From Alistipes montrealensis (lineage in GTDB: Bacteria; Bacteroidota; Bacteroidia; Bacteroidales; Rikenellaceae): DNA of 64,000 nt. Below the pieces are notes generated by a model that was not told where the DNA came from, ran no database searches, and worked only from the letters and a program-made list of their open reading frames with translations. Where the stretch lies: the NCBI RefSeq assembly GCF_018362775.1, contig NZ_JAGYXY010000004.1:295630-359629 (forward strand), in the 5' to 3' direction. Shown in pieces: positions 15,287 to 42,843 of the stretch. How positions within the stretch are numbered: the first letter of the stretch is position 1; each line of letters opens with the position of its first letter. The position numbers and the translations under genes were made by a program.

Positions 15287-17332
15287 TCAGTAGGGCAGTT
15301 CGATGCGTATGCAGCAGCCTCCGCGGTATTCGGGGCAGACGCGGATGTCTCCCCCGAGGCGGGTGACGATCAGGCGGCAGAGGTAAAGCCCGATGCCCGA
15401 GCCGGGTTTGAAGGGGTCGACTTTCGTGAAGCGTTCGAACACCCACTCCCGTTTTTCGGGTTCGATGCCGATACCCGTGTCGCTGACGCTGATTTGCAGG
15501 GTGCGCCGGACTTCGTCGTTGCGGCAGGAGAGTGTGATACGCCCCGTGGCGGTGAATTTGGCCGCATTTTGCAGCAGGTTGTCGACGACACGCATCAGGT
15601 AGAAGGCGTTGGTGGAAACAAGGCCGTCACCCCCCCCCGCTTCGTAGACGTATTCGACAGCCGGGTTGCCGGACAGCTGCCGCTGCGCTTCGAGCCGCTC
15701 GGCGCAGAGCAGGCAGACATCGGTTTCGGTCCGCGGTAGGGGTTCCTCGCTGCTGATCAGGCCCGAGAGTTCGAGCATGTTTTCCAGCAGGGTGGTCAGC
15801 GCCGTGGTGCTTTTCTGGATTTCCGATTGGAACTCGTGCCGGATTTCGGGGTCCTCTTCGGTCAGCAGCAGCCCCGAGAAGCCGTTGATGGCGTTCAGGG
15901 GCGTGCGGATTTCGTGGCACATCGAGTTGATGAAGGCGGTCTTCATCTTTTCGCTCTCCTGGGCGCGGCAGCTTTGCCGCTGCGCCTCCCCGTTGGCCGC
16001 CAGCAGTTGTGTGCGCGTCAGTTTCAGCCGCCGCACCATGACGTGCTGGAAGATACTCCAGATAGCGAGCAGCAGCAGGATGACACCGCCGGCGATAAGC
16101 ATGAAGAACTTGATGCGGTCGTCCAGCTGTGCCTTTTCGAGTTCGAGCCGGTTGACTTCGAACAGCGCCTGCATTTCGGCCAGGCGTTGCTGCGCCTCCG
16201 CCATCCGGTTGTTATAGCGCAGTTCGTTGGCTTCCCGAACGGTCCGGAGTGCATTTTTGTAATCTCCCGCTTTTTCGTACAGGCGCGACTGCACGGCATA
16301 AATCGCCGCCAGGTCGACCTTTTTGCCGGTTTGCCGGTAGAACATCAGGGCCGAATCGATATAGGCTATCGCCCGCAGGTCGTCGCCCATATACTGGTAA
16401 TAACGGGCGCTGGTCGTGTAAATCTCTTCCCGGTCGTTCCGTTCCCGGGCCAGCCGCATGCATTTGTTGAAATAATCGGTCGCCTGCTCGCGGGTGATCA
16501 GGTCGCGCAGGAAAACCATCTTGCCGTAGGCGCGCATCAGGTATTTGGTCGTGTCGCGGTGGGGCCTTCCGAAGCGGTTTTCCATCGCCATCCACCGGCG
16601 GTGCAGGTCGATGCACTTTTCGATTTCGCCCGCTGCCCGTTTGTCTTCGGTGTACATGTAGAGGTCGCAGAGTTCCTCGCGGCAGAGTTTTTCGAAATGA
16701 AGCCGCTCTTCCAGCGGGTACTTTTCGAGTTTTTGCAGGGCGCGCTCCACATAGGGGATCGCCTGCCCGATATTGCCGTAGGCTTCGGCGGCGATCGACG
16801 AGTAGTCGACGGAGAGTCCCGTCAGGAACTCCCATTCGATCAGTTCTTCGGGGGTGAGACCTCCCGGTTCCTTCTGTTTGAGTTTCTCCAGCGCGCTGTC
16901 GACCGCTTCGGACGAATCGGAGACGATCATCTGTTTCCAGAGCCGGAAAACCCGGAGCGATGCGCGGAACAGGGCATAGCGGCGTTCGGGAAGGAGGCTG
17001 TCGGCGAGTTCGACGCAGGCCAGGGCCTGCTGCGGATCCTTGTCGGAGAGTGTGGATACCAGCATATCGAGCGCATCCATGCAGCCGTAAGCGTCACCGG
17101 CCTTGTCGGCTTCGGCGAGCGCCTTTTCCCAATAGCCGGTGGCGAGCATGACGCTGTCGGCGTGCAGGTCGGCCAGTTGGATGTATATCTGTTCCCGTTC
17201 GGCGGCGGTGCGCGCGCCGGGCAGTGTTGTCAGCAGACTGTCGGCTGCCGGGGATGCGGAATGCGCCGTCAAAGCGGCGCAGATTGTCAGGAATGCGACC
17301 CCGGAAAGGGTCTTCGAGATAATCGGACGCAT
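15287..17332 (-). CDS. Membrane sensor histidine kinase with TPR-type sensor domain
   Basis: A 681-residue two-component sensor. The signal peptide (residues 1-25) is followed by a periplasmic region of about 370 residues made of TPR-like helices. One transmembrane segment (about 408-428, FFMLIAGGVILLLLAIWSIF) comes next, then a coiled linker. The kinase core follows. The H box is INSMCHEIRTPLNAINGFSG (phosphorylated His near 475), the N box is VVDNLLQNAAKF, G1 is SDTGIGIEP and G2 is GSGIGLYLC. No receiver domain is fused and no response regulator is adjacent, so the partner is encoded elsewhere. A nine-G tract in the coding strand encodes AGGGD just before the N box; a one-base change there would remove the ATPase domain. 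Promoter at 17366. Confidence 0.93.
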   Translation of the reverse strand: MRPIISKTLSGVAFLTICAALTAHSASPAADSLLTTLPGARTAAEREQIYIQLADLHADSVMLATGYWEKALAEADKAGDAYGCMDALDMLVSTLSDKDPQQALACVELADSLLPERRYALFRASLRVFRLWKQMIVSDSSEAVDSALEKLKQKEPGGLTPEELIEWEFLTGLSVDYSSIAAEAYGNIGQAIPYVERALQKLEKYPLEERLHFEKLCREELCDLYMYTEDKRAAGEIEKCIDLHRRWMAMENRFGRPHRDTTKYLMRAYGKMVFLRDLITREQATDYFNKCMRLARERNDREEIYTTSARYYQYMGDDLRAIAYIDSALMFYRQTGKKVDLAAIYAVQSRLYEKAGDYKNALRTVREANELRYNNRMAEAQQRLAEMQALFEVNRLELEKAQLDDRIKFFMLIAGGVILLLLAIWSIFQHVMVRRLKLTRTQLLAANGEAQRQSCRAQESEKMKTAFINSMCHEIRTPLNAINGFSGLLLTEEDPEIRHEFQSEIQKSTTALTTLLENMLELSGLISSEEPLPRTETDVCLLCAERLEAQRQLSGNPAVEYVYEAGGGDGLVSTNAFYLMRVVDNLLQNAAKFTATGRITLSCRNDEVRRTLQISVSDTGIGIEPEKREWVFERFTKVDPFKPGSGIGLYLCRLIVTRLGGDIRVCPEYRGGCCIRIELPY
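15630..15638 (-). repeat. G9 homopolymer inside the histidine kinase gene
   Basis: Nine consecutive C on the plus strand (G on the coding strand) encode three glycines upstream of the N box. The gene is in frame at this length. Tracts of this length are prone to slippage in other bacteria. Confidence 0.8.
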
Positions 17333-25405: not shown

Positions 25406-27583
25406 TTACTCCGCCGCTTTGATTTCGAGTACGCGGCTCGCGTACTCCTTGCCTACCGAAAATTCGAGTCCGTTCTCCATCAGGAAGGCGCCGCTGAAAG
25501 TTTTGCCGTGCTGTGGGATCGGCTTGCCTTCGATGTTCAACTCGGTGATCGTGTAGCGCTTGCCGGGGTCGAGGCCCGCCATCCGGAAAGCCGGGGACGG
25601 CATGTTGAGGTAGTGCTCCAGCTTATAGACGAACCAGACGGCGCGTTCCTTGCCGGGCGTGACGTACATCAGCGAAGCGTAGCCCGTCTTGTCGTAGGGC
25701 GAGATCAGCCGGTAGAGGTCGCCCTGCTGTACGACGGGGCGGATGTCCTTGTAGGCGGCGATCGCCTTGCGGGCGAACTCCTTCTCTTTGTCGCTCATCT
25801 TTGCGGGTTGCAGTTCCAGCCCCAGGCGTCCCGACATGGCCACGTCGAAGCGCAGCTTGAGCGGCACGCTGCGGCCTGTCTGGTGGTTGGGCGAGGCGCT
25901 CACGTGCGACGCCATCGCCGCGGCGGGATAGAAGTTCGACACGCCCCACTGCATGTAGATGCGTTGCAGGGCGTCGGTGTTGTCGCTGGTCCAGAACTCG
26001 TCGTAATAGGGCAGTACGCCGTAATTGACGCGCCCGCCGCCGCTGGCGCACGACTGCATCACCAGGCGGGGATATTTCTCCTGGATGCGGCGCAGCACCT
26101 TGTCCATGCCGCGGTGGTAGTCGATGTAGAGGTGCGACTGCCGGTCGGCCGGGAGGTATGTCGAACCGTAATTGTAGAGGGTCATGTTGTCGTCCCACTT
26201 GATGTAGGCGATTTCAGGATGGGCGGTCATCAGGTTGTCGACCACGCCGAAGACGAACTCCTGCACCTCGGGATTCGAGAGGTCGAGCACCTGCTGCGTG
26301 CCGCCGCGGCCCAGGCGGTTCTCCCGGTAGGGCTGCTGAATCACCCAGTCGGGGTGCTTCTCGTAGAGTTCGCTTTTGGTGTTGGTCATCTCGGGTTCGA
26401 TCCAGATGCCGAATTTCACGCCGTGTTTTTTAGCTGACTCCGTCAGGCCTTCGATACCCTGCGGGAGTTTCTCTTTGCAGACCATCCAGTCGCCCAGGCT
26501 CGTCGAGCCGTCGTTGCGCGGGTATTTGTCGCCGAACCAGCCGTCGTCCATCACGAACAGTTCGCCGCCCAGGTCCGAGAGGTCGGCCATCATCCGGTCC
26601 ATCACCTCCTGGTTCACCTTGAAATAGACGCCCTCCCACGAGTTGAGCAGCACGTCGCGCAGCTCGGTCCCGTGGTTCAGCCGGTGGAGCCGCGCCCATC
26701 GGTGGATGTTTCGGCTCACGCCGCTTTTGCCCTCGTCGCTGAAGGTGAACGCGAAAACCGGGGTCGTGAAGAGCTCTTTGGGCTGGAGCGTATACTGGGA
26801 CTGCTCTTCGTTGATGCCGGCGAAGACGTGCGTCGTGTGGGTGTTGTCGTTGTCGAAGGCGATGCGGTAGTTGCCGCCCCATGCGAGCGTGCCGCCGATG
26901 ACGCGGCCCGCCAGTTCGCGGGGCTGTCCGTCGAGCGAAATCATGAACGACGGGTTGTCGGTCTGCGTATTGCGCACGCCGTTCTTGTTCTTGAGCACTT
27001 TCATGCCGTCGGTCAGGGGCTCCTCGTAGAGGTAGCATTCCGCGCCCCACGTACCGTGGAAATGCGAAAGCCATGTGTCGCCACGGCGGACGGGCATGTA
27101 GGCCGATGCAAAGCGGTAGAGCGTCACGGGTTTCTTCTCCGCATGGCTGATCTGGGTCCAGGTCTCGATGACCTCGCAGTCGTCGTAGGTCTTGTAATAG
27201 AGCGTTACGAAGAACGGATAGTGTTTGTCCTTCATGGCTATGGCGGTCGTTTCGGCCCCGTCTTTCCGGTCGCGCGATACCGATTCGACGACGAGTTCGA
27301 GCGACATGCTGCCGTCGTTGTGCGTCGCCTGGACGGCGACTTCGCGGTAACACTGGGCGCCGAACTGCGGGTAGGCGGGATCGCCGAATGCCACGCCGCT
27401 GTCGAGGATGTCGCCCGGCGAGGCGACATGCGCCCCGAAATACTGGAACAGGGGCGCTTTGCCCTTCTCGGCGGTCAGCAGCAGCGAGGAGTTTTTGGTC
27501 GAGAGCAGGATGTTTTCCGCCCGGAGCATGCCGCCGGACAGCAGTGCAGCGCCGACCCATGCCAATACTAAAAGTCTCTTCAT
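25406..27583 (-). CDS. Alpha-galactosidase, glycoside hydrolase family 36
   Basis: A secreted 725-residue GH36 enzyme that releases terminal alpha-galactose from oligosaccharides. The signal peptide MKRLLVLAWVGAALLSGGMLRA is followed by an N-terminal beta-sandwich (to about 300) and a TIM barrel. YIKWDDNM (near 475) supplies the nucleophile Asp, and SCASGGGRVNYG, then WTSDNTDALQR, supplies the acid-base Asp. VMDDGWFGDKYPRNDG is the usual GH36 substrate-contact region. No lipobox is seen, so it is probably periplasmic. It lies downstream of the SusCD-GDPD genes but after a palindromic terminator and with its own near-consensus box (TATGTTTA, about 27621), so it may be expressed separately. Confidence 0.94.
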   Translation of the reverse strand: MKRLLVLAWVGAALLSGGMLRAENILLSTKNSSLLLTAEKGKAPLFQYFGAHVASPGDILDSGVAFGDPAYPQFGAQCYREVAVQATHNDGSMSLELVVESVSRDRKDGAETTAIAMKDKHYPFFVTLYYKTYDDCEVIETWTQISHAEKKPVTLYRFASAYMPVRRGDTWLSHFHGTWGAECYLYEEPLTDGMKVLKNKNGVRNTQTDNPSFMISLDGQPRELAGRVIGGTLAWGGNYRIAFDNDNTHTTHVFAGINEEQSQYTLQPKELFTTPVFAFTFSDEGKSGVSRNIHRWARLHRLNHGTELRDVLLNSWEGVYFKVNQEVMDRMMADLSDLGGELFVMDDGWFGDKYPRNDGSTSLGDWMVCKEKLPQGIEGLTESAKKHGVKFGIWIEPEMTNTKSELYEKHPDWVIQQPYRENRLGRGGTQQVLDLSNPEVQEFVFGVVDNLMTAHPEIAYIKWDDNMTLYNYGSTYLPADRQSHLYIDYHRGMDKVLRRIQEKYPRLVMQSCASGGGRVNYGVLPYYDEFWTSDNTDALQRIYMQWGVSNFYPAAAMASHVSASPNHQTGRSVPLKLRFDVAMSGRLGLELQPAKMSDKEKEFARKAIAAYKDIRPVVQQGDLYRLISPYDKTGYASLMYVTPGKERAVWFVYKLEHYLNMPSPAFRMAGLDPGKRYTITELNIEGKPIPQHGKTFSGAFLMENGLEFSVGKEYASRVLEIKAAE

Positions 27584-27709: not shown

Positions 27710-29890
27710 CTATTTCGGGGCCGTGACGAACGGCCTGGCCAGCAGTTTTTGCAGCGTGGCGGGGTTGTCGGTGGTGATGTAGTCGACGCCCAGCCCGATG
27801 CAGGCGATCATGTCGGCCGTCGAATTGACGGTCCAGGCGTTGACTTCGATTCCGCTCGCGTGGGCTTCGGTCACCCATTCGGGCTTTTTCGAAAGGACGG
27901 TCGAATACTGGTAGTCGATGCCCGTGAGTTTGTCTGCCGCAACCTCGGCCGGGGCCTTGTCGCCGCCGAGATACTGTACGCTGGCTGTGGGCATGGCCGC
28001 CTTGAGTTGTTTGCAGACCTCGTAGTCGAAGGCGATGTAATCGACCCGGGCCTCCATCGATTTCGCCTTGACGGCGGCTACGACGGCGTTGACGGCCCGG
28101 GTGTTGATCGAGGCCGAACTGTGGGTCTTGATCTCGCAGATCAGTTTCATCGCGGCGTCCTTGGCGCCCTGCTCCAGATAGGCGTCGAACGTCGGCAGCA
28201 CTTCGCCGTTGGCCAGCGTGAGGTCCTTGATCTGTGCATAGGCGCTCTCTTCGATCTTCAGGTCGCTGCCCGCGACGGTCGCATTGTGGTTGATGACCAG
28301 TACGTCGTCGGTCGTGATCCATACGTCGAACTCGGCGCCGTAGATGCCCAGTTTCTGGGCGTTGGCCAGCGCAGCGATCGAATTTTCGGTGGCGTCCTGT
28401 ACGCCGTCCTGGTGCTGGCCGCGGTGTGCGATGATTTTGGGCGTCGCGATGCGGGGATTGTCGTTGACGGTGAATTCGACGATGCCGAGCGGATACTGGC
28501 TGCTGCCGCGGACGAGCGTCATGAAGTACCGGTCCTGTCCGTCGGGAAGCGCCGGGAGCGTTGCGGCCAGCGACTGCTGGGTCGCCTCGCCCGAGGGCTC
28601 GGTAAGCGCGGCGTCGGCCGTGAAGGCTGCGGTCACATCGGTCGCCGAGGTGAACCTGACCTTGTCGCCGGTTTCGAAGCCGTTGCCGTAGATCGTGTAG
28701 GTGTAACCCGCGCCGATCTCGCACCTGGCCAGATAGGTGAGGTTCGAAACGGCGAATTCGACGGGAGCCTGGTTCTCGAACTTTGCGTCCTTGTAGAGCA
28801 GGGCTACCTGCTCGTCGGTCAGCGCATCGTCGAATATGCGGGCCAGGACCACCTCGCCGTTCCACGCGTTGCCCATCGAGCCGACTGCCGAGTCGCCGCC
28901 CAGTGCGAACCAGCGCGCTCCGTCCTTGGCGTGGTTGAGGTTGCCGACTGCGTCGGCCGTGCCTTTCAGCTCGCCGTCGACGTAGATGTACGCTTTTCCT
29001 TCGGTTTTGTCCCATACGCCCACGACGTGGTAGTAGCGGCCCGGTTCGGGATAAACGTCGCTCTGCGCCCAGATCCATTTGCTGCTGCCGGTGGTGCTCA
29101 CGTTGGGAAGGAACGTAATGCAGGCCGAATGGCCTCCCTGGCCCTCCTTGCAGATCAGGAAGCCCGTGCCGCCGGCTTCATGGGCCGAGAACGGTTTGTA
29201 CTCTTTCGTGCCGTCGTTCTTGTTCGAACGCAGGACCACCTCCATCGAGTGACCGTCGTCGAGCCCGTTTTTGAAGGTCTCGTTCTGGTAGTAATCAACC
29301 CGGTAATAGGAGTTGGTGCGGGAGCCCTGGCCGGGGGTATGCGTATAATTGCTGACGATGCGCTTGTAAACGTCGTGGTAATAGTAGGTCAGCGCCGCTC
29401 CGGGGTAGCTGATCACCTCGTTCTTCAGCGGCGATACGTCTTCGGCTGTGCCGTCCGCATGGAAAACAACGTCGAGCAGGTCGGCTTTCGGGGCTTCGGG
29501 CTCGGGGGCTTCGGGCGAAGGATCCTGCGTGATGGTGAACTCCTCGATCAGGGTGGGGTCCGAAACCGAGATGAACCGGAGTGCGCCGGAGCGCTCCTTG
29601 CTCACGGAGTTTTCGGGAATCACGATCGCCAGCGTCATGCCGTCGACCGTAGGTCGGGTGAACCAGTTCGTCTTGCTCTGGTCGATTGCGTAGGTCCATT
29701 TGCCGTTGGTCGTCACGGTGAACACGACCGTGGCGCCTTCATAGGGAACGGTTCCGGTTTCGGTGGTAAGGTTGGAGGTTACCGAGAAATCGAAGTCTTT
29801 CCATTCGGCCGTCTCGTCGTCTTTACACGATGTGCTGAGAGCCAGTGCAAAGGCCGTGAACAGGAAGACCGATAAAAAACCTTTTTTCAT
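27710..29890 (-). CDS. Surface lipoprotein: BACON, LamG-like, IPT-like and glycerophosphodiester phosphodiesterase domains
   Basis: A 726-residue multidomain lipoprotein. The lipoprotein signal ends at LSTSC (Cys near 22). A BACON domain (about 40-115; WTYAIDQSKTNWFT, then EEFTITQDP) is followed by a Pro/Glu linker. A concanavalin/LamG-like domain (about 125-345; PGRYYHVVGVWD, KAYIYVDGELKGT) is followed by an IPT/TIG-like segment (about 350-455). The C-terminal GDPD domain (about 460-720) has IIAHRG with ENSIAAL, GAEFDVWITTDD, a catalytic His in VINHNAT, CEIKTH and TTDNPATL. GDPD enzymes cut glycerophosphodiesters to glycerol 3-phosphate and an alcohol. The setting predicts it trims a phosphodiester-bearing ligand at the surface for SusCD import. 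Confidence 0.87.
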   Translation of the reverse strand: MKKGFLSVFLFTAFALALSTSCKDDETAEWKDFDFSVTSNLTTETGTVPYEGATVVFTVTTNGKWTYAIDQSKTNWFTRPTVDGMTLAIVIPENSVSKERSGALRFISVSDPTLIEEFTITQDPSPEAPEPEAPKADLLDVVFHADGTAEDVSPLKNEVISYPGAALTYYYHDVYKRIVSNYTHTPGQGSRTNSYYRVDYYQNETFKNGLDDGHSMEVVLRSNKNDGTKEYKPFSAHEAGGTGFLICKEGQGGHSACITFLPNVSTTGSSKWIWAQSDVYPEPGRYYHVVGVWDKTEGKAYIYVDGELKGTADAVGNLNHAKDGARWFALGGDSAVGSMGNAWNGEVVLARIFDDALTDEQVALLYKDAKFENQAPVEFAVSNLTYLARCEIGAGYTYTIYGNGFETGDKVRFTSATDVTAAFTADAALTEPSGEATQQSLAATLPALPDGQDRYFMTLVRGSSQYPLGIVEFTVNDNPRIATPKIIAHRGQHQDGVQDATENSIAALANAQKLGIYGAEFDVWITTDDVLVINHNATVAGSDLKIEESAYAQIKDLTLANGEVLPTFDAYLEQGAKDAAMKLICEIKTHSSASINTRAVNAVVAAVKAKSMEARVDYIAFDYEVCKQLKAAMPTASVQYLGGDKAPAEVAADKLTGIDYQYSTVLSKKPEWVTEAHASGIEVNAWTVNSTADMIACIGLGVDYITTDNPATLQKLLARPFVTAPK

Positions 29891-30458: not shown

Positions 30459-32402
30459 TTAATAACCCGGATTCTGGACCAGTTGGCCGTTGATGTTGAG
30501 CTGCGAGTTGGGAATCGCCAGCCAATAGTGCTTCGGCGAAGAGAAAATGCGCGTGTCGTTCTCCTTCATGTCGCCCAGTTTGTAGAATTTCTCGGCGGTG
30601 TCGCCCTCGATGTTCCAGGCTTTCGGGATGGGACGCAGGCACTCCTCGGCGATCTTCCAGCGGCGGATGTCGTGGAAACGGCGTCCCTCCATCATGAACT
30701 CGATCGAACGCTCGCGGCGGATGATGTCGCGCAGTTTCTGGCCCGACGGGATGCCGCCGGCCTTGCTCCACGACTCCTGGAACGTCGGCAGGCCGCAGCG
30801 TTGGCGGATTTTGTTCAGGCAGTCGTAGCCGTAGTCGCTCAGCGTGCCGTCGTATTCGAAATCGGCCTCGGCGTAGCTCAGGTAAAGTTCGGCGACGCGC
30901 ATGTAGGGGTAGACGTAGCTCATGTAGGTGCTGACGGCGTAGTTGCCGCTCGAATTGAGCGACATCTTCGACTGCTCGTTGACCCATTTCTGGCAGAAGT
31001 AGCCGTTGTAGGACTGGTACTCGTTGTCGTAGCTGCCGGTGAAGCCCTGGGGCTCGCCCTTGCGCGCCTTGATGGTCATTTTACCGCCGTTGAACCGGTA
31101 CGTGCCGCGGTCGTAACCCACCGACGCGTAGAAACGCGGCTCCTTGTGGAGGTGCATCTCGACCGTTCCCGCCTCTGCGTTGTAGGCCAGCGGGTCGATG
31201 TCTTTCGTTTCGGGGTCGTCCTCCCACGGAAGGCCGTTTTTGGTGTAGTACATCTGGACGGCCTCGACCGTCGGACACGAATAGCCGCGGTAAGCGCCCG
31301 AAACCTTCGTGTAGTCGTTGGCCAGGTGGCAGCCGAACTGCCGCTGCGTGTAGGTGATCGAACCCGACTTGTTGAGGCTCATCAGGTATTCGTTCTGGTT
31401 CATGAACTGCGTCGAGTTGCCGTCGCCGGTGAAGATATACGTGTAGTTGATGCGTCCCAGTTCGAAGGGGTCGGTTACGCCGGAGGTCTTCGATACCGAC
31501 AGGCCGAGTTTGCGGCTGTCCATCGTGTAGGCTCCCGTGTCTTCCGAGGCTTCGACGCAGTCGATGGCGTCTTTGGCGGCGTCCATCGCACGCTTCCACT
31601 TCTCGGCGTCGTAGGTCTGGTTGATCAGGTGCGTGCCGTCCTTGTTGACGAAGTCCGAGTAGAACTCCGTGTTGCCGTTAACGAGCGGCGATGCGGCGTA
31701 GAGCAGCAGCCGGGCGCGGTAAGCCAGTGCCGTGGCTTTGATGGCGCGGCCGTACTGGATGGGACCCCAGTAGTCGGGCAGCATCTGGGAGGCTTTCCAG
31801 TACTCGCTTTCGATGAAGTCGACGCATTCGTCGTAGGTGCTGCGCGGCACGTTTACGCTGCTCGACGGAGAATTCAGGTCGATCTCCTCGCGGACCAGCA
31901 CGACCGGGCCGTAGTACTCCAGCAGGATGTGGTGCAGGCGGGCGATCAGGAAGTGCGCCTCACCCGACCAGTATCGCAGGTTGGCTTCCGTGATGTCGGG
32001 AACCGATTCGATGTTGTTGAGGAAGTTATAGGCGTAACGCAGGCCCTCGTAAATGTTATACGAGTAGTTGCCCGTCGGAAGCCCCGTGGTCGTTCCCCAC
32101 AGGTTGAAGTAGGTGTTGGTCGGGGACTCCTGCGAGGTGGCGTACACCAGGCTCTTCCACGAGAAATAACGCACCGAGCCGTAGTAGCTCGAAATCAGGT
32201 CGTCGCCGCCGTTCAGGTCGGGCATGGCCTGTGCGTGGAAGAGGTCGGGACACTTGCCGTAGATCATGAAGAGCATCTTCTCGGCCTGGGCCTGGGTCTT
32301 GTAAATGTCGTCCTGCGTAGGACTGCCCTCGGGGACCACATCCAGGAAATCGCAGGATGCGGTTGCGAGAAGGAGGGCTAAAGCCAATACTATTTTTTTC
32401 AT
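30459..32402 (-). CDS. SusD/RagB-family nutrient-binding outer-membrane lipoprotein
   Basis: A 647-residue surface lipoprotein that caps its partner SusC and captures the ligand. The lipoprotein signal is MKKIVLALALLLATASC, followed by the typical DFLDVVPEG start and the early segment DDIYKTQAQAEKM. TPR-like helices recur (EAHFLIARLHHILLEYYGPVVLV). The C-terminal SusD segment includes MRVAELYLSYAEADFEY, LNKIRQRCGLP, IRRERSIEFMMEGRRFHDIRRW and a final NPGY. It is slightly longer than typical (500-600), suggesting extended ligand loops. It starts 20 bases after SusC and shares its transcript. Confidence 0.95.
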   Translation of the reverse strand: MKKIVLALALLLATASCDFLDVVPEGSPTQDDIYKTQAQAEKMLFMIYGKCPDLFHAQAMPDLNGGDDLISSYYGSVRYFSWKSLVYATSQESPTNTYFNLWGTTTGLPTGNYSYNIYEGLRYAYNFLNNIESVPDITEANLRYWSGEAHFLIARLHHILLEYYGPVVLVREEIDLNSPSSSVNVPRSTYDECVDFIESEYWKASQMLPDYWGPIQYGRAIKATALAYRARLLLYAASPLVNGNTEFYSDFVNKDGTHLINQTYDAEKWKRAMDAAKDAIDCVEASEDTGAYTMDSRKLGLSVSKTSGVTDPFELGRINYTYIFTGDGNSTQFMNQNEYLMSLNKSGSITYTQRQFGCHLANDYTKVSGAYRGYSCPTVEAVQMYYTKNGLPWEDDPETKDIDPLAYNAEAGTVEMHLHKEPRFYASVGYDRGTYRFNGGKMTIKARKGEPQGFTGSYDNEYQSYNGYFCQKWVNEQSKMSLNSSGNYAVSTYMSYVYPYMRVAELYLSYAEADFEYDGTLSDYGYDCLNKIRQRCGLPTFQESWSKAGGIPSGQKLRDIIRRERSIEFMMEGRRFHDIRRWKIAEECLRPIPKAWNIEGDTAEKFYKLGDMKENDTRIFSSPKHYWLAIPNSQLNINGQLVQNPGY

Positions 32403-32422: not shown

Positions 32423-35400
32423 TTAGAATTGGTATTGAACACCGATCTTCGCCGTGCGCTGAAGCGGGTAGGTCAGGCCGTGGCCGCCGCCTTTCTCGGG
32501 ATCCCAGTAGTCGAACGGGGAGATGACGAAGAGGTTGTTGCCCGAGAGGTATACACGGAATTTCTTGATGGTGTAGCCCAGTTCCACGGTCTTCAGACGC
32601 AGGTATTTCGCATCGTGGATGTAGAAGGTCGAACTCTGGGTGTTGTTGGAACTCATCTGCGAGGTCAGGCGCGGATAGGCCGCGTCGGCGCGGTTGTTAT
32701 CCTCCGACCAGTGGTTGTCGGCGATGTACTGCGTGATGCCGTATCCGAAGTGCGAAGCGTCGCAGAACGGGTGCATGTTGTACATCCGCAGCGATACGTT
32801 GGCCGCGCCCTGGAACATGAACGAGAAATCGAACCTGCGCCATTTCACCGTCGCGCCGAAGCCGTACTGGATTTCGGGGATCGTGGGACTGCCGGCCGTC
32901 GTCACGTCGTTGCCGTCGACGATGCCGTCGCCGTTCAGGTCACGGTATTTGATGTCGCCGACCGTGTAGTTGCCGAACTGCTGTTTGGGCGAGTTGTCGA
33001 TCTCCTCCTGCGAGGTGAACAGGCCGTCGGCGATCAGTACGCCCGTGATGGCGTTGACCGGATGGCCTACGACCGACATATAGTCGTACATCAGGTCGCC
33101 TTCGTCCTTCTCGATCACTTCGTTGCGCGAGAAGGTGAACGTGCCGCGCAGGCTCAGCGACCAATCCTTGTTGAGCTGCTTGTTATAGACGGCCGAAAGA
33201 TCGAGTCCGTGCGACTTCACGCGGCCGATGTTGCCGTAGGGCGTAACGCCCAGCAGGCCGGTCGACGAAGGCAGCGAGGTGCGCCGCATGAAGATGCCCG
33301 TACGGTCTTCGGTGAAGTAGGCGGCCTCGATGCTCAGTGCGTTGAACAGCCCCAGTTCGAGGCCGATGTCGAACTTCTTGGACTCTTCCCACGTCGCGTT
33401 GGGGTTGCCGTAGGTGGTGATCTTCGGGCCTTTGCCCTGGGTGTTCCAGTTGTAGTAGAACCCCGAATCTTCGCCCATGGCCACGATCGAGCGGTAGGGG
33501 AAACGTTCGCTCAGGGCGTCGTTACCCGCCAGGCCGTACGATGCCCGGATCTTCAGGTTGTTGACCGTCTGGCGGATGCCGTCCCAGAACGACTCGTTCG
33601 AAATCACCCAGCCGGCGGCGGCCGAGGGGAAGAAACCCCAACGCTTGCCGGGGGCGAAGTTCTCCGAACCGTTGTAGCCGAAGCTGGCCTCGAACAGGTA
33701 GCGGTTGTCGAATCCGTAGGTCACACGGCCGGCCATGCCCTGTTCGCGGTAAGGCAGCAGGTTTTCCTCGCTCGTGCCGGCGATGTTGTTCTTCTTCTCG
33801 TTCATGCGGTAGACGAACATCGCGCCCACGTCGTGCCTGCCGAATTTGCGGGCGTAGTTGAGCGATGCCTGCAACGCGTAGCGGCGGTGGCCGCCGTTGC
33901 CGTCGGTGCTGGTCAGGTAGGTCGTACCCGTGTCGCCGATCGAGTTGGTGATCAGGTTGGCTGTGCCGTCGGGATTCAGCGAACTTCCGTCCTCGACCTT
34001 GAAGTAGTAGGGGGTCGCCGTGCGGTAGGTCGCCGAATAGGTGTAGTTGTAGAACGACGCCGTGAGGTTGGCACTCAGGCCCTTGGTGAAGAAATCCAGG
34101 TTCTGGTCCAGCGTAAAGGCCGTTGTCATGTAGGAGTAGTAGCGTTTTCCGTAGCCGCGGGCCAACTTGGCCAGCGGGTTGAGGTCGGTGGCGCCGGTGT
34201 CCCACGAAGCATTGTTGCCGTAGCGGACGAACGTGTCGCCCTCTTCGGCCGGAAGCGTGGCCGGGAAACGAACGGGGTTGGCGCGCATCGAGTAGTAGAA
34301 CAGGTCGCCGATATCCTCGATCGGGCGGGTGTTGTACTCCAACTGGGCGTTGACCTTGATGCCGACGGTCGTCGTCTTGGTGATGTTGGCGCTGACGTTG
34401 CTCTGGAAGATGTATTTCTGGTGGTTCATCTTCACGTCATAGGGGTTCTGCTCGATGTCGGCGATGATGCCGTTCTCGTTCGAGACCGCCGCGTTGAGGA
34501 AATAGCTGACTTTCTGGCCGCCGCCGCGAATATTGAGGTTCAGGTTCTGGTTGACCGTGAAATCCTTGAACAGCAGGTCGTACCAGTCGTTGTTGGGGTA
34601 GAGGTATTTGTTGAGGCCCGCCTTCGTTCCGTTGATCTTGTCGGCCGAGTAGAACGGTTGGTAGGTGTGGAGCGTTCCGGTCTCCTTGGCCGTGTTGAAA
34701 ACGGCTTCGTTGTAGAGCTGCATGTAGGTCACGCCGTCGGCGACATCCTGCACCATCGTAGGCAGCGAGAAGGTGTTTTCCAGGCGGACCGAGACGTTCA
34801 TCTTCTCCGAGTTGCGGCCGTTTTTCGTGTTGATGAGGATTACGCCGTTTGCTCCGCGCGAACCGTAGACGGCCGTTGCGGCGGCGTCCTTCAGCACCGA
34901 GAACGACTCGATCGATTCGGGAGGCATGTTGTTCAGCATGTTGCTCAGTACCTCCACGCCGTCGAGGATGATCAGCGGGCTGTTGCTCGAACCGAAGGTC
35001 GAGATACCGCGGACGTAGAAGGTGGCGCTGTCGTAGCCGGGTTCGCCGGTGGTCTGGCGCGAGATCATGCCGGCGATGTTGCCGGCGAACGCCGTGGTCA
35101 GCGAACTCGACGTGATGTTCAGGTCGGAGGGTTTGACGGAGGTGATCGACGATACCATCGACTCCTTTTTCTGCGTGCCGTAGCCGACGACGACGACTTC
35201 GTCGAGCGTGTTGTTCTGTTCGACGAGCGATACGAGTTTGAACAACTCTGCGTCCTCGGTATGGAGTTTCTTGGTGTCGAAACCGACATACGAGAAGGTT
35301 ACATATTTGGATTTGGCGGGAATGGTGAAGGTGTACGAACCGTCGCCGTTGGTGATCGTGCCGGCATTCGTGCCTTCGACATAGATCATAACGCCCGCGA

Positions 35401-35835
35401 GCGGGGAGTTGTCGGTTCCGGAGATTACCGTGCCGCTGACCGTTTGGGCGACATCGCGCGAACCGCTGGCGGCCTGGTGGATGCGGACCTGAGTGCCGCT
35501 GACCGAGTATTGCAGCCCGACGCCGGGCAGGATCTGGTCGAGAATTTTGTTTGCGCTTACATTTTTTTCCTTGACCGTGACGACTTTTGTCAGGATGGAT
35601 TTTACCTCATCGGGGTAGGTGAAGCGCAGTTCGCTCTGCGACTCGATGGATTCGAGGACCTCCCTGAGGCTTGCGTTGGTTACATCTATCGTTACATAGA
35701 TGCCGCGGATTTGGGCGGATACATTTCCCCCCCCCACAGGCAGGGTAGAATTCCGGACATCAGCAAAACGGCGATGAATCGCAGGATTGCCGGAAAATGC
35801 CCGTTCCCAAGTGTTTTTTGGCGAGTTTCTTCCAT
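32423..35835 (-). CDS. SusC/RagA TonB-dependent transporter with STN domain; out of frame at a G9 tract (apparently phase OFF)
   Basis: The 22-stranded outer-membrane transporter of the locus, about 1137 codons in all. From ATG at 35835 the frame encodes MEETRQKTLG, then RFIAVLLMSGILPCLWGG, a good signal peptide, then runs into nine G (35727-35735). The mature protein (NVSAQIRG onward) is in the next frame. It has an STN domain (TIDVTNASLREVLESIESQ), a carboxypeptidase-like domain (GTVISGTDNSPLAGVMIYVEG), a plug (VVVGYGTQKKESMVSSI, LIILDGVEV, SVLKDAAATAVYGSRGANGVI) and a complete barrel. As sequenced, translation stops 11 codons after the tract, giving a 47-residue peptide. Seven or ten G would restore one protein. 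A GTG at 35737 opens the mature frame but gives no signal peptide. STN domains usually mean FecIR-type control, but no such genes lie nearby. Confidence 0.92.
35727..35735 (-). repeat. G9 homopolymer at the SusC frame junction
   Basis: Nine C on the plus strand (nine G on the coding strand) lie between the signal-peptide core and the mature start. The two coding frames meet exactly here. Confidence 0.93.
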
Positions 35836-35976
35836 AATGGTTTTAATAAGGTTCTGGTTAGTAATTGATGAAGTTTCGAAATGTAGTGGGCGTGTGGTTG
35901 TGTCTGGTTTGGAGTCTGAAATGTCTGTTTTGTAGAATCGGCTTGAATTTAAAGGTTTTGTGGACTATTCCATATG

Positions 35977-36006
35977 CAAATATAGAAAATAAGATGTACA
36001 ATGCAA
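35977..36006 (-). promoter_or_regulatory. SusC operon promoter with -33 and -7 elements
   Basis: On the minus strand TTG (36004-36006) and TATATTTG (35977-35984) are 19 bases apart, the standard Bacteroidetes spacing. The predicted leader is about 135 nt. The surrounding 35836-36155 gap is otherwise A+T-rich and without genes. Confidence 0.72.
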
Positions 36007-36131
36007 GTAATTTTTAATTTTGATTTTATTCTTTTTGGTGGAAGTATTGTTTTGAATCGAAATAAGCCGTGCAGCGGCATTCCGGGGCGGGATTCGAAGG
36101 GTAAAGAGGTGCGTTCTTCGGAAAAAATGGT

Positions 36132-36139
36132 TACTTTTG
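36132..36139 (+). promoter_or_regulatory. tadA promoter, -7 element
   Basis: TACTTTTG, with the start codon 17 bases later, implies a leader of about 12 nt. Confidence 0.7.
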
Positions 36140-36155
36140 CCGAAAACGATCCGAC

Positions 36156-36602
36156 ATGGAACAGCAGCAAACCGACGAAAAATTCATGCGCCTGGCACTA
36201 AACGAGGCACAAAAAGCGTTAAAACAACAGGAGGTCCCCATCGGGGCGGTCGTCGTGGCCGACGGTGCGGTGATCGGGCGGGGGCACAACCTCGTCGAAA
36301 CCCTTGCCGACCCGACGGCCCATGCCGAGATGCAGGCCCTGACGGCCGCTGCCTCGACGCTCGGGGGCAAGTACCTGCAAAACTGCACGTTGTACGTCAC
36401 GGTCGAACCGTGTATCATGTGCGCCGGGGCGATCGGATGGGCACAGGTAAGTCGCGTGGTGTGGGGCGCGGACGATCCCAAGAAGGGTTACAGGCGCTAT
36501 TCCGAGGCGGTATTCCATCCCAAAACCACAGTGGCACGGGGTGTGCTCCGGGAGGAGTGCGAGGAGTTGATGAGCAGTTTTTTCGCGGGTTTACGCGGAT
36601 AG
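36156..36602 (+). CDS. tadA: tRNA-specific adenosine deaminase
   Basis: TadA converts A34 to inosine in the anticodon wobble position of tRNA-Arg(ACG). The 148-residue protein has the deaminase zinc motif: HAEMQAL (zinc His and proton-shuttling Glu, near 57-59) and PCIMCAGAI (two zinc Cys, near 86-89). The substrate-contacting tail region YRRYSEAVFHPKTTVARGVLREEC is normal for TadA rather than for nucleoside deaminases. It is monocistronic or leads the TPR gene. A separate promoter for the latter lies at 36604-36636. Confidence 0.95.
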   Translation: MEQQQTDEKFMRLALNEAQKALKQQEVPIGAVVVADGAVIGRGHNLVETLADPTAHAEMQALTAAASTLGGKYLQNCTLYVTVEPCIMCAGAIGWAQVSRVVWGADDPKKGYRRYSEAVFHPKTTVARGVLREECEELMSSFFAGLRG

Positions 36603-36603
36603 A

Positions 36604-36636
36604 TTTGGTAAAAAAGGAATTTTTTTTATACTTTTG
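36604..36636 (+). promoter_or_regulatory. Promoter of the TPR protein gene (-33 and -7 elements)
   Basis: TTTG (36604-36607) and TACTTTTG (36629-36636) are 21 bases apart, close to ideal. The start codon follows 65 bases later. Confidence 0.75.
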
Positions 36637-36701
36637 CATCCAACGCATTCCGGGAACGGGGTGTATGAACCGAAAACTAAAAAAACGTATAGGAAACAAC
36701 C

Positions 36702-37640
36702 ATGAAAAAATTATTAGTACTTGCAATTGTGCTGTTGGCGGCGGGGTCGCTCTCGGCGCAGGATGTCACAGCAATCTACAATGAAGCGGGCGCCGCTTAC
36801 AACGCCAAGGATTTTGCCGGCGCAGCCGCGAAATTCGAGCAGGTGATCGAACAGGGCATGGACAACGAAGATGCCGCTTCGCAGGTGGCCACCGCTAAAA
36901 AGACGCTTCCCACGTGTTATTTCATGATGGGTGGCGGCGCCATCCGGACCAAAAAGTACGACGAGGCACTGAAGAATTTCACCAAGTCTGCCGAGTTGGC
37001 CGAACTCTACGGCGATATGAGCCAGATGGCCAAGGCCAACGGGTGGGTAGCCAAGATCTACCAAATCCAGGGCGGCGAGGCTTTCAACAACAAGGATTAT
37101 GCAACCGCTGCAAGCGTGTTCGAGAAGGGCTACAAGGCCGACCCCGACAATACCGCGATGGCGCTTAACCTCGCGATGAGCTATTGCGAGATGGGCGAGT
37201 ACGAGAAGGGTATGGACATCTACGAGGCCGTTGCTGCCAAGACGCATCCCAAGTATGCCGAGGATGCAGCCAAAGCCAAGGAGATGATTGCCCTTTACAC
37301 CAATAACAAAGTGGCTACGCTGCAGGCAGCGAACGATTTCGACGGTATCATCGCGATGGCCGACGCGCTGCTCGCGAAGAATCCCGCCAACGCCCTGGCT
37401 GAGAAAGTCCGCCTGCAGGCTTATGCCAGCAAGAAGGATTTCAACAAGGTGATCGAACTGGGCCAGTCTGCTGCCGATGCACAGACCGATCCCGAGGACA
37501 AGAGCCTGATGTACCTGACGCTCGGCGCTGCTTACAACGCCAAGGAGATGAAGCCGCAGGCTATCGCCGCCTTCCAGAAGGTGACGGCAGGTCCCGCTGT
37601 CGAAAGTGCGAAAGCCGCGCTTGCCGAGCTGACGAAATAG
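36702..37640 (+). CDS. Exported TPR-repeat protein
   Basis: A 312-residue periplasmic or surface protein. The signal peptide MKKLLVLAIVLLAAGSLSA is cleaved before QDV. The remainder is made of about seven TPR-like helix pairs (AIYNEAGAAYNAKDFAGAAAKFEQVI, given as AYNAKDFAGAAAKFE; MALNLAMSYCEMGEYEKGM; YLTLGAAYNAKEMKPQAIAAF). TPRs mediate protein contacts; no catalytic motif is present. Similar one-domain TPR proteins are common in this phylum and have no assigned role. A strong promoter and a terminator bracket it, so it is a single-gene unit. Confidence 0.85.
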   Translation: MKKLLVLAIVLLAAGSLSAQDVTAIYNEAGAAYNAKDFAGAAAKFEQVIEQGMDNEDAASQVATAKKTLPTCYFMMGGGAIRTKKYDEALKNFTKSAELAELYGDMSQMAKANGWVAKIYQIQGGEAFNNKDYATAASVFEKGYKADPDNTAMALNLAMSYCEMGEYEKGMDIYEAVAAKTHPKYAEDAAKAKEMIALYTNNKVATLQAANDFDGIIAMADALLAKNPANALAEKVRLQAYASKKDFNKVIELGQSAADAQTDPEDKSLMYLTLGAAYNAKEMKPQAIAAFQKVTAGPAVESAKAALAELTK

Positions 37641-42834: not shown

Positions 42835-42843
42835 GGGGGGGGG
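42835..42843 (+). repeat. G9 homopolymer, intergenic
   Basis: Nine G lie between the ligase terminator and the asnA terminator. No frame or promoter depends on it visibly. It is noted because two other nine-G tracts lie in genes. Confidence 0.75.

Follow-up and report, generated by a model that had tools for sequence, protein, structure and literature searches.

In Campylobacter, 53% of poly-G tracts have 9 G and 26% have 10, the two peak lengths, and switching occurs in tracts from 8 G upwards, according to the accessible part of the report (PMC6321876). Phase variation of SusC genes is known from Bacteroides, where the accessible text of two studies ascribes it to DNA inversion (PMC4747536, PMC10939037). 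A third kind of element, AIMS, consists of leading-strand octamers with a gradient towards the terminus, as far as the available portion of its description goes (PMC5993296). The locus described here lies in a 64,000-nucleotide stretch of the Alistipes montrealensis genome (henceforth the window), in which a SusC gene is interrupted at a run of nine G (G9). From sequence comparisons, we consider this tract to be probably one locus of a genome-wide poly-G contingency set, with phase variation by slippage as the best explanation (probability about 0.65). An earlier description of a poly-G system in Alistipes was not found among the open-access papers listed in the searches, which covered the starts of abstracts.

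On the minus strand of the window, the signal peptide (ATG at 35835) and the mature SusC protein are in different reading frames, and the break falls at a G9 tract (35727–35735, minus strand) at the end of the signal-peptide region. From the ATG up to the tract this strand encodes MEETRQKTLGNGHFPAILRFIAVLLMSGILPCLWGG. As sequenced, the frame (35692–35835, minus strand) yields a truncated product of 47 residues, in which the signal peptide MEETRQK...PCLWGG continues out of frame to a stop, and the transporter frame downstream of the tract (32423–35737, minus strand) is open throughout its 1104 codons. Pfam recognised Plug and CarbopepD_reg_2 domains and a weak STN match in this protein, and none was found to the beta-barrel model PF00593 at E 1e-6. 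Given these domains and the SusD/RagB partner gene that follows (30459–32402, minus strand), we assign it as a TonB-dependent SusC (SusC/RagA) gene product. Further downstream on the same strand are a glycerophosphodiester phosphodiesterase with a lectin domain (27710–29890) and a GH36 melibiase of the alpha-galactosidase family (25406–27583). When the tract was varied in silico from 6 to 12 G, translation gave a single SusC frame of 1136 or 1137 residues with 7 or 10 G, and only 46–76 residues with 6, 8, 9, 11 or 12; a change of a single base, from 9 to 10 G, restores the frame. The first-pass annotation had claimed that the SusC frame is split exactly at the nine-G tract with a stop after 47 residues, that seven or ten G would give one intact protein and that the rest of the gene is undamaged, and the sequence and its translations bear out all three points. 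Gene decay was rejected, since the 1104-codon frame is still open. As to transcription signals, the -7 box of Bacteroidales has the consensus TAnnTTTG, to which TATATTTG (35977–35984, minus strand), about 140 bases upstream of the ATG, is a match; the 3.4-kb SusC locus holds five matches against a shuffle mean of 1.17.

DNA inversion, the usual mechanism in Bacteroidales, might control the window SusC gene and make the tract irrelevant. The precedent in Bacteroides cited above and the head-to-head copies of another SusC family of the genus speak for it, but no inverted repeats of at least 14 bp were found within 35400–37000, the range searched, and promoter inversion close to the SusC start was rejected on this ground. 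We therefore regard control by inversion as highly improbable at this gene.

A separate observation concerns the SusC leader TTTTTATTTTAAAAAC..AATTAACGCTTATGGTAAGAAA, which is conserved at the DNA level in many congeners. Loci with this leader include L134 (G000:C8, end 446966) and G000:C10:157462-158307 in the genome of the window, as well as G051:C1:311103-314763, G007:C11:13502-21948 and G009:C216:1798-5156. In three genomes a pair of SusC matches is found at a distance of a few kb with opposing orientations, and in the window's genome two contigs terminate about 100 bases or less from the leader; an invertible SusC locus would be expected to look like this.

Runs of seven or eight G are absent from the window, which has three of exactly nine. 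For G/C runs of 6, 7, 8 and 9, the observed numbers are 1, 0, 0 and 3, against 25.5, 6.2, 1.7 and 0.4 expected from a first-order Markov model that ignores codon structure. Plain 8-mer counting reached no significance (6 matches, shuffle mean 3.16, with 15 of 100 shuffles reaching 6). The second G9 (15630–15638, minus strand) is in frame within a histidine kinase gene (15287–17332), near its catalytic domain, where slippage would cut off the ATPase domain. The third (42835–42843, plus strand) lies between convergent genes on the G-rich strand and is one of just two such exceptions on contigs with skew.

The whole genome to which the window belongs (G000; 3.48 Mb in 13 contigs) has 81 G runs of 7 or more, of which 73 are exactly nine bases long; there are two each of 7, 8 and 10, one of 11 and one of 12. 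Leaving out an assembly duplicate copy (L097) reduces the exact-G9 count from 73 to 72. The window SusC tract exceeds 8 G, lies within an ORF and is of a length found above chance. In the genome as a whole, 31 of the 72 G9 runs are outside any called ORF, some of them between convergent genes. Two features of one contig deserve mention. At L097 (4001–4165; G000:C6:240613-240777) a 156-bp tandem repeat carries a G9 at the start of each copy, and a single N precedes the second copy, probably marking a scaffold join at a G9. At about 382,000–392,000 of G000:C6 there is a direct duplication of some 4.8 kb, either real or assembly redundancy, near a sign change in GC skew; it covers the start of what we take to be a polA-like gene, together with its neighbours.

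To characterize the genes involved, 48 ORFs that contain or adjoin tracts were scanned with Pfam, a set outside which most neighbours of intergenic tracts fall. Seventeen of them are tract-bearing TonB-dependent SusC genes with a Plug domain. Regulators comprise four ECF sigma factors, one FecR, four hybrid two-component systems and one LytTR protein, and there are three histidine kinases, one with the G12 run. Glycan-related functions are represented by three glycosyltransferases, a sulfatase, a polysaccharide deacetylase and a nucleotide-sugar dehydratase/epimerase; two PCMD and two BACON proteins, a few others and three ORFs lacking any Pfam match complete the set. No ribosomal, polymerase or tRNA-synthetase gene is among these 48; the neighbour of one intergenic tract (L100) resembles, from its translation, what is presumably the housekeeping gene tex. 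Within the SusC genes the tracts lie early, 15 of the 17 falling in the first 160 codons (for uniform placement, P is about 4e-11; positions were entered by hand, those in signal peptides were counted by eye and the second copy of L097 was left out). The early sites are signal peptides, the stretch between STN and plug, and early loops, with two tracts (L079, L060) in the barrel, and one SusC paralogue has its own G9 at a different early site. In the ECF sigma genes L045 (9414–9422) and L053 (3001–3009) the tract appears as poly-C, in both at codon 110, between sigma regions 2 and 4. Tracts placed early, in genes of surface and regulatory classes, are the anatomy of contingency loci.

At nine G, 38 of the 42 assignable intragenic tracts were in frame when read by eye, against the one third expected under free drift; this tally omits ambiguous 3'-end cases (L035, L056, L080, L092) and small ORFs (the first tract of L040, L049, L066). 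The four out of frame are the window SusC, a PAS-kinase gene (L086), L096 and a gene in L093. On this by-eye reading of the frames, the window SusC is an unusual tract gene, predicted to be OFF by default at nine G. Its frame break could alternatively stem from an error in sequencing or assembly, or from a recent loss of function, in a stable population with a single tract length and no switching at this locus. Homopolymers are error-prone, the locus is represented by a single sequence and most other tracts are in frame, all of which would fit an error or a loss; but nine, as the most frequent length in both the genome and the genus, is no odd value, three more genes are out of frame at G9 and the remainder of the SusC gene is open. 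An error or a loss thus appears distinctly improbable.

The preference for nine extends to the genus. In 41 genomes of the genus Alistipes, exactly nine G is the length of 895 of the 1345 runs that have at least 8, and it makes up the majority of such runs in 32 of the 41. Within a sample of 148 genomes from the order, that of the window included, its 72 G9 runs compare with 24 in the next highest and with 0–5 in most. In the congener G153, a single-contig genome sampled as 20 evenly spaced stretches of 20 kb (400 kb), runs of 6, 7, 8 and 9 numbered 29, 3, 3 and 14 against Markov expectations of 155, 37, 12 and 2.7, so that in this sample as in the window runs of 6–8 are far below expectation and runs of nine above it. 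Unlike most congeners, G030 has exactly nine G in just 28 of its 80 runs of at least 8, and is a candidate for freer length drift. Two others, G041 (98% complete) and G053 (97%), have no match to HG9WA. Because the tracts are genome-wide and genus-wide, sit early in SusC genes and concern surface and regulatory genes, the case for phase variation is strengthened well beyond one locus. A mode at nine is itself compatible with switching poly-G tracts, as Campylobacter lengths peak there in the part of that report accessible to us (PMC6321876).

Tract length was also compared at matched sites between species. For the window SusC, matches were found in 8 of 180 genus genomes, its own included, and no foreign match extends to the tract; a scan of genome contigs with the protein confirmed no relative, and a search for tract alleles in viral contigs gave no match. 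Other SusC genes were more informative. At a SusC signal-peptide site (query L050; 31 loci including L111), six loci have G9, all six in frame, and two carry interrupted glycine-triplet alleles, GGGAGGGGG, without a frame shift; two of the 31 did not reach the site and the remainder have other signal peptides. In named Alistipes records with this signal-peptide tract the length was exactly nine in 7 of 7, using a pattern that permitted seven or more G, at least one of these records belonging also to the first genome set. G153 was also aligned with two close species, G155 and G159, and none of five alignable tract sites differed by one G. G153 and G155 share the SusC signal-peptide G9 (88% identity over 608 bases), which is interrupted in G159; at one intergenic site both species compared have a G9, but an 18-base gap breaks the site; and each of the other three tracts is present in one species and either missing or interrupted in the second. 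G000 and G153 have the same SusC barrel tract despite 58 synonymous differences in the 203 codons around it. SusC tracts can thus stay conserved at exactly nine. An origin of G9 as an inserted 9-base unit was rejected, the peptide up to the glutamine having 23 residues with the tract and 22 or 23 without it; with lengths this close, substitution or expansion is the more likely source of the signal-peptide tract. The first-pass proposal of a phase-variable SusC in the OFF state thus gains from the tract set, the gene classes and the early positions, but not from these comparisons, which are between species only: single-base length variants were found at no locus, and uninterrupted tracts at the SusC signal-peptide site all have nine G.

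The G9 runs are also strongly oriented. Skew was measured at four-fold sites and averaged over both gene orientations, and contig C7, with nine G9 runs and a skew near zero, was left out of the polarity test. Of the 72 exact-G9 runs (duplicate left out), 61 are on the G-poor strand, two on the G-rich strand and nine on the skewless contig, so that on contigs with skew the G-poor strand holds 61 of 63, against just 1 of 5 runs of other lengths. This share is 13/13 for tracts antisense within genes, 22/22 for sense tracts and 26/28 for those outside called ORFs, and since all three favour the same strand the orientation of G9 tracks replication and not the gene. By the usual skew rule the G-rich strand is the leading one, and a ribosomal protein L2 gene is found on the G-rich strand within the same arm; from this rule and this one gene, G9 would be on the lagging strand. 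In the G153 sample, as we read it, the agreement of G9 with local skew is looser, and runs of six lean to the G-rich strand. On the 3' side, A and T prevail at positions +1 to +4, and HG9WA is more frequent than its reversed control, by 45 to 5 in the window's genome, 64 to 13 in G049, 43 to 10 in G052 and 43 to 9 in G138, with a weak bias in G023 (22 to 19) and G043 (40 to 30). We know of no mechanism for this flank bias. Slippage or tract survival dependent on orientation could produce the polarity. The near-fixed length and the replication-strand polarity are not obviously predicted by simple slippage.

These properties are the basis of the main rival explanation, in which G9 is a fixed-length, replication-oriented DNA element, either protein-bound or made strand-specifically, comparable to KOPS or AIMS, and its effect on the SusC frame is incidental. 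A length of nearly always exactly nine, inside and outside genes, the strand polarity seen at this length and the directional 3' flank all speak for it. A chromosome motif does not, on the other hand, predict that SusC tracts should crowd into the first 160 codons. The concentration of tracts in surface and regulatory genes among the 48 scanned ORFs also speaks against it, as does a flank bias that is only slight in certain congeners; and AIMS are leading-strand octamers in the available part of the literature (PMC5993296), the opposite of the strand on which G9 probably lies. As the sole account of the tracts we hold such an element to be unlikely. It does not exclude phase variation: tracts may be generated by a process linked to replication, and selection may exploit the ones that lie at gene starts. 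A tentative and more specific combination, to which we give a low probability, is that Alistipes might actively maintain length-locked, replication-oriented G9 elements, either through a protein that binds G9 or through slippage that depends on orientation and is drawn sharply to nine. Elements lying early in SusC and regulator genes would then serve the whole genus as frame switches for polysaccharide utilisation.

Under phase variation by slippage, our preferred reading, replication slippage would alter a tract by one base and bring the downstream reading frame in or out. At nine G the window SusC would be OFF, leaving the 47-residue peptide and losing the transporter, perhaps with a polar effect on SusD and the genes behind it; 10 (or 7) G would put a cell in the ON state. 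The majority of the other tract genes would be ON at nine and turned off by a slip. Should tract length be drawn to nine, the window SusC would be OFF in most cells and ON in a minority with ten G. We infer that length changes at a useful rate, that expression changes as a result and that this has a role in nutrient uptake or in exposure to phages and antibodies. If so, common gut commensals would have, beside DNA inversion, a second independent route to diversify nutrient uptake and the targets of phages and antibodies, a genus-wide poly-G system would act on SusC transporters, sigma factors, an anti-sigma factor and hybrid two-component regulators, and some apparent Alistipes pseudogenes would be switchable genes. 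The near-exact nine and the replication polarity offer, in addition, a way into the question of how homopolymer tracts arise and are maintained.

What is new, on the best explanation, is thus poly-G phase variation, a known kind of switch, in a group known for DNA inversion. With Bacteroidales inversion systems, as presented in the accessible parts of their descriptions (PMC4747536, PMC10939037), it would share the stochastic control of surface proteins, but the tract would change the reading frame and not the orientation of a promoter, and the start of the window SusC lacks the inverted repeats sought around it. Like AIMS and KOPS, going by the available text on these motifs (PMC5993296), G9 is a short strand-biased motif spread over the chromosome; it differs in its 72–73 copies, in their concentration near SusC 5' ends and in its strand, with enrichment on the G-poor, putatively lagging strand (61 of 63) instead of the leading one. 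The closest likeness is to the Campylobacter phasome, in which, from the portion of the report at hand, many poly-G tracts per genome peak at nine, lie mostly in ORFs and set the frame by their length (PMC6321876). Alistipes, however, belongs to a different phylum, and its targets are SusC genes together with sigma, FecR and hybrid two-component regulators. Variability between homologues is shown for Campylobacter, whereas the Alistipes comparisons gave no single-base variant. The Alistipes tracts display a strong replication polarity, of which the accessible text on Campylobacter makes no mention, and a greater dominance of nine, which accounts for 73 of 81 runs of at least 7 as compared with 53% nine and 26% ten in the same accessible portion of the Campylobacter report (PMC6321876).
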